Source: Bacteroidales bacterium (GTDB taxonomy: Bacteria; Bacteroidota; Bacteroidia; Bacteroidales; UBA932). Taken from it: a DNA stretch of 64,000 nt. The stretch lies in the NCBI GenBank assembly GCA_029007435.1, contig JAQXHU010000037.1, positions 1 to 64,000 of the forward strand. The letters run 5' to 3'. The first letter of the stretch is position 1; each line of letters starts with the position of its first letter. Positions 38,241 through 46,270 of this stretch are shown one piece after another. The position numbers and the translations under genes were made by a program. The notes beneath the pieces were generated by a model. It was not told the origin of the DNA. It searched no databases and worked only from the letters and a program-made list of their open reading frames with translations.

Positions 38241-38876
38241 CTACTGTCTGCTGAGTTTGAAACCGAGTTTCATTCCATTATAAGAATTTGAAAGGCTTGA
38301 AATTGCGCTTACAGTCGTGGATTTGTTGCCTACTACGGAAAGAACTGTCTTCAGGAATGAAAGGAATCTGTCAGACTCGAAAAGAAGTTCGCATCCTGAA
38401 GTAGTGGCTTTGAGATATCCTGTTATTGAAAGGTACTTCATCGTCTGTCCGAACTGAAGAGTGAGTTTTCCTTCATCAGTGTTCTGCTTCCAGGTGCCGT
38501 TGAGCGTTTTTCCCAGTATAGTGCAGGAGAATGACATACCATCATTGAATGTGAATGACACTGTTCCCTCTTTGATACCCACTTTCTCAAATGCTGAAGC
38601 CACTTTCTTCTCCATACCTGAAGTCACGGCGGAGCCGGCTATATTGGAGAGTGCGTTTTCCCCGGTCATATCAATAGCTGGTCCGGTATATTTCCAGGTT
38701 CCCGGAAGAGACACATTGCTGGAATTCGTAACAGCGTCAACGACATTGGTTACAGCGTTTACAACATCACCTGCTTTTGTTCCTTTAAGAAGGTCAGTGA
38801 GACTCTGCGCAGAGACATTGAAAACAATGGCTGAGACAAACGCAGCAGCCAGAGACATAAATAATCTTTTCTTCAT
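38241..38876 (-). CDS. DUF4923-like secreted protein
   Basis: MKKRLFMSLAAAFVSAIVFNVSAQSLTDLLKG...TWKYTGPAIDMTGENALSNIAGSAVTSGMEKKV...SNSYNGMKLGFKLSRQ. Confidence 0.75.
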   Translation of the reverse strand: MKKRLFMSLAAAFVSAIVFNVSAQSLTDLLKGTKAGDVVNAVTNVVDAVTNSSNVSLPGTWKYTGPAIDMTGENALSNIAGSAVTSGMEKKVASAFEKVGIKEGTVSFTFNDGMSFSCTILGKTLNGTWKQNTDEGKLTLQFGQTMKYLSITGYLKATTSGCELLFESDRFLSFLKTVLSVVGNKSTTVSAISSLSNSYNGMKLGFKLSRQ

Positions 38877-38894
38877 AACTATTTAATAATAAGG

Positions 38895-39908
38895 TTACTC
38901 TGTTTCTTTCCACCCTTGTGCGCGGATAGGAAGTTCAGCACCGGTTGGCATTACAATGACCGTGCCGACGTCGCTTTTGGCAAGGTGCCCGATGATGCTG
39001 AATGACTGGAAATCGTGCCTGAATTTCTCATAATCCGACATCGAGATTACGTACAGAAGGCGGTAGTCCTCTCCCCCGTTCAATGCAGCGGACATAGGAT
39101 CGAGATTAAGACGCTTCCCGAGTTCGAAAGAATTTCCCTCAAACGGGATCTTGTCGGAATAGAGTTTTACTCCGAGCCCGCTGTCTTCATTAAGCTTCTT
39201 GACGGCGTCGGCAAGGCCTCTGTCAATGAAATATCCATAAGAAGGAATTATGCCGCTTTCTTTCAGGCCATCAAGCACTCCGGGATTGATTTCAGGTTTC
39301 AGATAAGCACCTGCAATCATCTTGTAATTATCCAGATTCATCTTCTCGGCAAGACTACCCGACTTTTCGATTCTCGCCTTCTCCTGCTGAAGAAGACACA
39401 TTCCGAGATAGGCACCTCCGACATTTCCGGAAATGCACACAAGATCCTTGCTTTTGGCCTGTTTCTTCGAATTTTCTGTCTCACCGTCCGTCTCTCCAGA
39501 AATACTGATTGAAACCAGAAGTCCGTTGCGTGACGGTCCGAGATCCAGATCAATACAGGAAATGTTATGTTCCTTGGCAGCGACGATTATACCATCCCAT
39601 AGTTCGCATATCTGCGGATATTCAAGTTTGGATGAAACAGATATCCTGACATTAATGGAAACAGGTCTTGCAAGAGCGGCATACAGCTCCCCTACTGTAC
39701 CTATAAAGCATTTATAGCCAAGATGTTTCAACGGAAAATATGTAAGATCGAAGTCTATACCTTCTGTCCAGAGTCTTGAAGAAGTCCTGACAACACCGTT
39801 TTTGGATGGAAGAAATGCAGAAGAGTGTCTCATTGAAGAACCTGCCCTTTCAAGCAGACGGCTTACCGCACCCTTTCTGCCAATATCGCTGAAATTAATT
39901 TTGTCCAT
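38895..39908 (-). CDS. ThiL-like (AIR-synthase-related) protein with degenerate active-site motifs
   Basis: TEGIDFDLTYFPLKHLGYK, DLVCISGNVGGAYLGMCLLQQEK and ALNGGEDYRLLYVI match ThiL framework, but GDD/TTD/SD/GGDTT/DISDG motifs are absent. Confidence 0.75.
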   Translation of the reverse strand: MDKINFSDIGRKGAVSRLLERAGSSMRHSSAFLPSKNGVVRTSSRLWTEGIDFDLTYFPLKHLGYKCFIGTVGELYAALARPVSINVRISVSSKLEYPQICELWDGIIVAAKEHNISCIDLDLGPSRNGLLVSISISGETDGETENSKKQAKSKDLVCISGNVGGAYLGMCLLQQEKARIEKSGSLAEKMNLDNYKMIAGAYLKPEINPGVLDGLKESGIIPSYGYFIDRGLADAVKKLNEDSGLGVKLYSDKIPFEGNSFELGKRLNLDPMSAALNGGEDYRLLYVISMSDYEKFRHDFQSFSIIGHLAKSDVGTVIVMPTGAELPIRAQGWKETE

Positions 39909-44216: not shown

Positions 44217-44591
44217 CTATTCATCGTCCATTCCAAGTTCCACTTTAGCCTCTTCTGATAGCATGCTCTTGTCCCAGGCCGGTTCAAATACAAGTTCAAT
44301 TGAACAAGATTTCACGCCGGGAACGTCTTCAACAGACACTTTGACGTCATTCATTACCTCATCAGCCATCGGACAATTCGGAGCTGTGAACGTCATCGTG
44401 ATGAAAACATCGTGCTTTTTGTTGATTACCAGTTCGTATATAAGTCCAAGATCGTAAATATTGACCGGTATTTCCGGATCAAAGACCTGCTTGAGAGCTT
44501 TGATTACGTCAGAATACAGAGGAGCGAGAGCTTTTGCGTCCTCAGCTGTCAACACTTCGTTATTATTATTTTTGTTTTCCATATTGTTCAT
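44217..44591 (-). CDS. MIP18/SufT-like (DUF59) Fe-S assembly protein
   Basis: VIKALKQVFDPEIPVNIYDLGLIYELVINKKHDVFITMTFTAPNCPMADEVMNDVK. Confidence 0.93.
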   Translation of the reverse strand: MNNMENKNNNNEVLTAEDAKALAPLYSDVIKALKQVFDPEIPVNIYDLGLIYELVINKKHDVFITMTFTAPNCPMADEVMNDVKVSVEDVPGVKSCSIELVFEPAWDKSMLSEEAKVELGMDDE

Positions 44592-44600
44592 TATAATATC

Positions 44601-45020
44601 TCACTGCAAGTACGCAGCCGCGGCAGTCTTTATTGTGGCGATCATCGATGCGAGACCGTTTGCCCTGGTAGGAGAAAGATTCTCTTTCAGGCCTATCTTC
44701 TCGATAAATGAAAAATCTGAGCCGCTGATTTCTTCCGGTGTACGTCCAGAATAAACACTGATCAGCAGGGAAATAATACCTTTAGTGATTATCGCATCGC
44801 TGTCAGCTTTAAAATACAATCTTCCATTTTCTGTATTATAATCAAGCCAAACCCTTGATTGACAACCTTTTATAAGTTTATCATCAGTCTTTGCCGAATC
44901 TGGATACGGCTCAAGATTCTTGCCAAGCTCAATAAGATATTCATATTTATCAAGCCATTCGTCATACATAGAAAATGACTCAACTATTTCATTTTCAGCC
45001 TGCTGCAATGATTTTTCCAT
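44601..45020 (-). CDS. sufE: SufE-family sulfur acceptor protein
   Basis: DEWLDKYEYLIELGKNLEPYPDSAKTDDKLIKGCQSRVWLDY...ADSDAIITKGIISLLISVYSGRTPEEI. Confidence 0.93.
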   Translation of the reverse strand: MEKSLQQAENEIVESFSMYDEWLDKYEYLIELGKNLEPYPDSAKTDDKLIKGCQSRVWLDYNTENGRLYFKADSDAIITKGIISLLISVYSGRTPEEISGSDFSFIEKIGLKENLSPTRANGLASMIATIKTAAAAYLQ

Positions 45021-45046
45021 ATATTGTCAAATTAAATTATCTACAA

Positions 45047-46270
45047 TCATACAAGCATATTCACAGCTTTACTAAGACATTTGATGAAGTATTCAGCTTC
45101 CTCCATTGTATTATATGGAGAGAGTGAAATACGCAACATTCCTGTGACACCGAAATGGTCCATAAGGGGTTCAGCACACATCTGTCCCGACCTTGCAGCG
45201 ATTCCCATCTTGTCAAGTATAAGAGCTACATCTTCGTGATGGGCACCTTTGACAGAAAAAGAAAAAAGCGGAATTTTCATTTTATTGTCTTCAGGTGTTC
45301 CGTACAATGTTATTCTGTCATTATGCTTCAATGACTCATACAGATAATCCTGAACTGAATGCATATTTGAAACAAGTTCATCATCTTGCATTAGTTCAGC
45401 TGTTTCGATAGCCGGTTTCAAAGTCGGAACACCAGCTATATTCTGAGTCCCGGCTTCGAATTTTTCCGGTAGCGGGGCGTAAGTCGTACCTGTGAATTTC
45501 ACTGATGAAATCATCTCCCCTCCACCCATATAAGGAGGCATTGCTTCAAGATATTTCTTTTTCCCGTAAAGAACTCCCACTCCCGGAGCTGAATACATTT
45601 TATGTCCTGAAAATGCATAGAAATCGCAATCTGTATCCCTTACATCCATTCCTCCGTGAACTATTCCCTGGGCACCGTCTATCAAAACAGGAATATTCTT
45701 GGAATGGCATATTCTGATAATTTCTTTGACAGGATTGACAATTCCGAGAACGTTTGAAATCTGGGTGATTGCCGTGATTTTTGTCCTGGTCGTGATAAGA
45801 TTATCAAGTTCTTTAATATTGAGAATTCCAGAATCATCAATTCTGAGCACCTTCAAGACAGCACCCTTTCTCTCGCACATCATCTGCCAAGGAACAATAT
45901 TAGAGTGATGTTCCTCCTCAGTAACTATAACCTCATCTCCTTCATTTATGAATTTTTCGCCAAAACAGAAAGCAACGAGATTTATCGAAGCAGTAGTTCC
46001 TGATGTAAAGATAATTTCTTCCCTGGTCTCCGCATTGATAAAATCTTTGACTATATCCCGTGTAGTCTCAAATTCATCTGTAGCGACTTCAGCCAGTCTA
46101 TGTACTCCCCTATGAATATTCGCATTGAATTCAGTAGACAGTTTATTCCATTTTTCAACCACTGACATTGGACGCTGACTCGTCGCAGCATTATCAAAAT
46201 AGACTAAATCCTTTCCATAAACTTGTGTGGAAAGAATCGGAAAGTATTCTCTTAGTTCCTTTACTGTCAT
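45047..46270 (-). CDS. sufS: SufS-type cysteine desulfurase
   Basis: YFDNAATSQRP, FTSGTTASINLVA, EEHHSNIVPWQ, FYAFSGHKMYSAPGVGVLYG (PLP Lys), RSGQMCAEPLM (catalytic Cys). Confidence 0.96.
   Translation of the reverse strand: MTVKELREYFPILSTQVYGKDLVYFDNAATSQRPMSVVEKWNKLSTEFNANIHRGVHRLAEVATDEFETTRDIVKDFINAETREEIIFTSGTTASINLVAFCFGEKFINEGDEVIVTEEEHHSNIVPWQMMCERKGAVLKVLRIDDSGILNIKELDNLITTRTKITAITQISNVLGIVNPVKEIIRICHSKNIPVLIDGAQGIVHGGMDVRDTDCDFYAFSGHKMYSAPGVGVLYGKKKYLEAMPPYMGGGEMISSVKFTGTTYAPLPEKFEAGTQNIAGVPTLKPAIETAELMQDDELVSNMHSVQDYLYESLKHNDRITLYGTPEDNKMKIPLFSFSVKGAHHEDVALILDKMGIAARSGQMCAEPLMDHFGVTGMLRISLSPYNTMEEAEYFIKCLSKAVNMLV

Follow-up and report, generated by a model that had tools for sequence, protein, structure and literature searches.

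The window, by which we mean the whole 64,000-nucleotide stretch of DNA analysed here, carries a homologue of the thiamine-phosphate kinase ThiL. This open reading frame (ORF) lies on the minus strand (39908..38895, ATG start, 337 codons, 337 amino acids), and the plus-strand frame of 38895-39908 is riddled with stops. A preliminary description of this DNA had given the coordinates correctly, and the three framework peptides it quoted are found in the ORF. The features of the gene are as follows.

38895..39908, minus strand: probable ThiL-derived pseudoenzyme, ORF of 337 amino acids (profile search, family distribution, AlphaFold model, Foldseek)
39795..39815, minus strand: residues 32-38, site of the canonical GDDAA ATP-phosphate/metal loop (Asp29/Asp30), with the loop deleted (alignment)
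39768..39794, minus strand: residues 39-47, strand equivalent to TTDLL, Asp47 replaced by Arg45 (alignment)
39711..39764, minus strand: residues 49-66, EGIDFDLTYFPLKHLGYK, conserved framework, TMP-contact His54 replaced by clade-invariant Asp52 (alignment)
39675..39692, minus strand: residues 73-78, GELYAA in place of SDIYAM, Asp75 replaced by Glu74 (alignment)
39531..39548, minus strand: residues 121-126, LDLGPS in place of GGDTSS, Asp122 kept and Thr123 replaced by Leu (alignment)
39213..39245, minus strand: residues 222-232, PSYGYFIDRGL for MIDISDGL, Asp211 replaced by Phe227 and Asp214 by Arg230 (alignment)
39054..39080, minus strand: residues 277-285, NGGEDYRLL, with the ThiL-signature GGED motif kept (alignment)

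Homology of the ORF to ThiL is far above chance. It matched the ThiL model TIGR01379 with 110 bits (E=1e-31), which is below the curated equivalog cut-off of 184 bits, and matched PRK05731 and other ThiL models with E-values down to 4e-23; the HypE profile reached only 7e-7, and the Pfam AIRS and AIRS_C domains were sub-threshold. ThiL ranked first among the PDB matches (1vqv, E=2e-8), and the by-eye alignment to ThiL in the preliminary description holds. Structure prediction, one of the checks it had proposed, yielded an AlphaFold2 model (alignment input with 52 relatives) with a pLDDT of 93.2 and a pTM of 0.91, and a Foldseek search with this model returned ThiL chains as all of its best 17 matches (E down to 2.7e-22). 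The predicted structure thus has an intact AIRS/ThiL fold, and the TIGR01379 match, together with the tree placement given below, identifies the protein as a ThiL orthologue.

To follow the active site, we compared the window protein with 25 canonical Bacteroidales ThiL and took residue correspondence to Pseudomonas aeruginosa ThiL from sequence alignment. In the P. aeruginosa enzyme the metal ligands are Asp30, Asp47, Asp75, Asp122 and Asp211, the GDD and SDGL loops are conserved, TMP is bonded by His54 and Tyr189, and adenine by Thr123 (PMC13254938); in Acinetobacter baumannii ThiL the nucleotide ribose-phosphate is bound by the IGDD loop (PMC6416309). Of the five metal ligands, the window protein keeps only Asp122; Asp75 has become Glu, Asp30, Asp47 and Asp211 are lost, the phosphate-loop Asp214 is now R230 and the adenine-contacting Thr123 is now L123, leaving the set of metal ligands plus Asp214 that marks an active ThiL incomplete in the alignment. 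The preliminary description had claimed that the GDDAAV, TTDLL, SDIxAM, GGDTT and DISDG motifs were replaced, with loss of nearly all acidic ligands. This is borne out for GDDAAV (the GDD loop with Asp29/30 is deleted), for the Asp of TTDLL (R45) and for DISDG (F227 and R230). It is half right for SDIxAM, where GELYAA replaces the Asp but an acid stays as E74, and wrong for GGDTT, whose Asp is kept as D122 within LDLGPS. The wider claim therefore stands for most motifs and overstates the loss of acids, since D122, E74 and GGED remain. Acidic remnants at ligand positions are limited to Asp122 and the Glu in place of Asp75, and the alignment gives no sign of shifted residues supplying the missing Asp ligands, which had been named as an outcome that would speak against a pseudoenzyme.

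The altered positions are not randomised within the genus. Across 52 genus members, Asp52, Tyr202, Asp/Glu122 and R/H/K230 are each present in 52/52, R/K238 in 48/52 and R/K45 in 41/52: the old active-site positions have been re-fixed. Basic residues have replaced the ion-site His and two of the metal-site Asp, and fixed positions include the Tyr on the TMP side, GG[DE]D and the new Asp52. An alignment of 29 diverse members has 28 invariant columns, K66 and GG[DE]D included. Compared with canonical ThiL, conservation is new at 20 positions, with conserved swaps at 20 (some of these being alignment gaps that reflect the missing loop); several of the sites concerned belong to the former active site. 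A dN/dS estimate, also suggested in the preliminary description, was obtained by pairwise NG86 among close orthologues with dS of 0.1-1.2; its median of 0.13 over 163 pairs, none of which is a close pair for the window copy, indicates purifying selection. Lost catalytic residues, an ORF under purifying selection and a predicted fold that is kept are together the marks of a pseudoenzyme, and this gene shows all three.

The window's genus is Candidatus Cryptobacteroides, the name carried by the named ones among 575 relatives in named genome contigs; its family is presumably GTDB UBA932. Within this family a ThiL homologue is present in 84/84 near-complete genomes and 25/26 sampled genera, nearly always as a full-length ORF, and no viral relatives were found. 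The window gene is a vertically inherited Bacteroidales thiL orthologue: it is nested in the tree inside canonical vertical Bacteroidales ThiL, and phmmer matches it better to the canonical enzymes of other Bacteroidales families (E to 1e-63) than to those of its own genus (1e-14). On these two results a paralogue was rejected. Some Cryptobacteroides and sister genera have a canonical ThiL that groups apart in the tree, on a long branch of 1.86; it often lies within a thiM-thiE-thiL-thiD cluster and is a foreign replacement. Such foreign copies clustered with ThiE, ThiD and ThiM occur at loci L024, L029, L030, L031 and L094-L098, and in several of these clusters ThiE is carried by an open frame of about 440-460 amino acids. 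Other genera of the same family have full ThiL motifs (L063, L076, L080, L082) or intermediate ones (L066, L077, L064, L081, L065, L078, L099, L100).

TPP supply in these organisms has other routes. Thiamine pyrophosphokinase (TPK) is encoded in 77/84 near-complete family genomes; of the seven TPK-less ones, three (G081, G100, G155) have a canonical vertical ThiL instead and four (G062, G065, G088, G141) have a second ThiL over the cut-off alongside the dead copy, and genus g46 has canonical vertical ThiL and no TPK in any sampled genome. Among genomes of the window's genus checked for both genes, TPK was found in 0/9 with a foreign ThiL versus 23/24 without one (Fisher p=3e-7, with related genomes not fully independent), TPK or a second canonical ThiL is present in 32/33, and genomes of both kinds keep the dead thiL. 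TPK as a functional partner of the dead gene was rejected, as TPK-less genomes also keep it. The window's genome is only 83% complete, which makes absences from it provisional. It encodes an intact-looking 221-amino-acid TPK ORF on contig 29, and no match to ThiE was detected in it, so the organism probably salvages thiamine. The search for a second canonical thiL proposed in the preliminary description found none by profile, the second match being PurM. Thiamine-independent growth of an organism lacking a second thiL had been named there as evidence against a pseudoenzyme; no second thiL was detected here, but TPK is present and ThiE is undetected. No TPP riboswitch was found at gathering scores near dead thiL, TPK or the foreign thi clusters.

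Loss of the motif residues has recurred. Parsimony on a tree from which the motif columns had been left out required at least five changes at the Asp47 site in Bacteroidales, with some deep forks poorly resolved. Erosion is seen in the main clade and its intermediates, and in L066, L079, family f2 (L032, L189, L192, L193), L190 (f83) and L184 (f87). The eroded lineages that were sampled encode TPK or carry a second ThiL, apart from a few incomplete genomes such as G163. In f87 one genome has an eroded ThiL and two others have TPK and no ThiL, from which it follows that redundancy and erosion can also end in gene loss, as they have not in the window's family. As a separate observation, ThiL of family f107 (L181, L182, L183) keeps all metal Asp, with His54 replaced by Asn or Asp and SDI by NDI or GDI, which could be an early erosion stage or an altered specificity.

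Taken together, the comparative data suggest that this is probably a ThiL pseudoenzyme retained for a non-kinase role, an old enzyme most likely turned into something else. The repurposed, non-catalytic AIRS-fold protein proposed in the preliminary description is supported by the presence of the gene in every near-complete family genome, by purifying selection, by the newly fixed residues and by the alternative sources of TPP. TPP supply by TPK would have made the kinase activity dispensable; Asp47 would have gone first in nearly every eroded lineage sampled, followed by Asp211/214, and the main clade would then have lost the whole ATP-phosphate loop. A task that needs no phosphoryl transfer would explain why the protein has stayed folded and essentially universal. 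Its most likely form would be a dimer that binds an anionic ligand in the former active-site cleft with no metal involved, and that acts as a sensor, carrier or regulator. Residue charges (basic R/K45, R/H/K230 and R/K238, with D52, D122, Y202 and GG[DE]D fixed) make this mode of binding in a basic cleft, with a ligand that may be phosphorylated, a tentative proposal. Slightly less tentatively, though still short of even odds, a second, non-kinase function of Bacteroidales ThiL may predate the loss of catalysis, the family form now being a metal-free ligand-binding sensor or carrier; if true, this older function would account for ThiL being repeatedly freed from catalysis yet kept after TPK took over. 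Because Asp122 and an acid at position 74 remain, weak nucleotide binding or another metal-dependent reaction is possible.

Three other readings carry less weight. That the protein is still a TMP kinase, working through the remaining acids (Asp122, Glu74, GGED) or compensating residues in an intact predicted fold, is the least probable of these: Asp30, Asp47, Asp211 and Asp214 are gone, two of them now basic, and the mutual exclusivity of TPK and second canonical ThiL in the genus is the pattern expected if the dead gene yields no TPP. A relic in slow decay, still present through chance or for some trivial reason, would fit erosion that began once TPK made ThiL redundant, and fits the two f87 genomes without any ThiL. 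This reading is already contradicted by the selection data and is very improbable given the dN/dS of about 0.13, the invariant columns and retention in every near-complete family genome. A new enzyme, in which the AIRS fold has been rebuilt around fixed D52, E74, D122, Y202, R230 and D281 for another reaction (compare PurM, SelD and HypE), deserves more weight and is nonetheless unlikely. Strong purifying selection, the invariant K66 and GG[DE]D, and the newly conserved and swapped positions at the former active site favour it. Against it stand the deletion of the ATP-phosphate loop, a Leu in place of the adenine-contacting Thr123 in nearly all members, and the lack of a conserved operon partner that would hint at a pathway. 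To our knowledge, known AIRS kinases and synthetases all use ATP.

With canonical ThiL (TIGR01379; structures 1vqv/3c9r-u, 5cc8/5cm7/5dd7 and 8yks/8yku) the window protein shares fold, length, the EGxxF/GYK framework, GGED and Asp122, but differs in the deleted GDD loop, the lost Asp47, Asp211 and Asp214, and the His54 to Asp and Thr123 to Leu changes, and in that TPP is made by TPK or a second ThiL. HypE, SelD and PurM have the two-domain AIRS fold in common with it, but their structural matches are weaker and their scores lower than those of ThiL, they lack a matching genomic context, and the tree places the protein within Bacteroidales ThiL. As in pseudoenzymes generally, catalytic residues are lost while the gene is retained under selection and the fold preserved; here, however, catalysis was lost from the orthologue itself rather than from a spare paralogue, and this across much of a family, part of which replaced the enzyme by a foreign ThiL. 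We found no ThiL pseudoenzyme in the open-access papers that the search covered, and no title on ThiL among matches for pseudoenzyme and thiamine. This appears to be a rare clear case of a core vitamin enzyme whose orthologue is catalytically dead across much of a family and nearly universal there, with intermediate stages of erosion surviving in living relatives. The dead copy hints, in a way that can be tested, at a role of ThiL beyond TPP synthesis. It is also a warning for annotation pipelines, since a thiamine-phosphate kinase may be assigned on the strength of this gene to genomes of an abundant gut group.

No gene neighbour or riboswitch at thiL loci points to the new role. In several families and many genera of the window's family thiL, canonical and dead copies alike, lies head-to-head with sufB, and in the window sufS-sufE lie near dead thiL. 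In the window's genus sufB is no longer a neighbour, and the loci compared share no fixed thiL partner; we therefore rejected a functional link to Suf and regard the arrangement as synteny only. The sufS and sufE genes, with a DUF59/SufT-like gene, folK and glyS, occupy 44217..46270 (minus strand), and this block recurs near dead thiL in about one third of genus loci. In several sister genera (L068, L069, L072, L074, L075, L065, L099, L100) thiL is divergent from a gene for a PnuC-type transporter (TIGR01528, 4e-22 in L069), which is flanked by sufB on one side and by a gene for a sufC-like ATPase on the other. Directly downstream of dead thiL and co-oriented with it is a gene for a secreted hypothetical protein (38241..38876, minus strand), with relatives at 24/81 genus loci compared, which could be an operon partner, although not a universal one.
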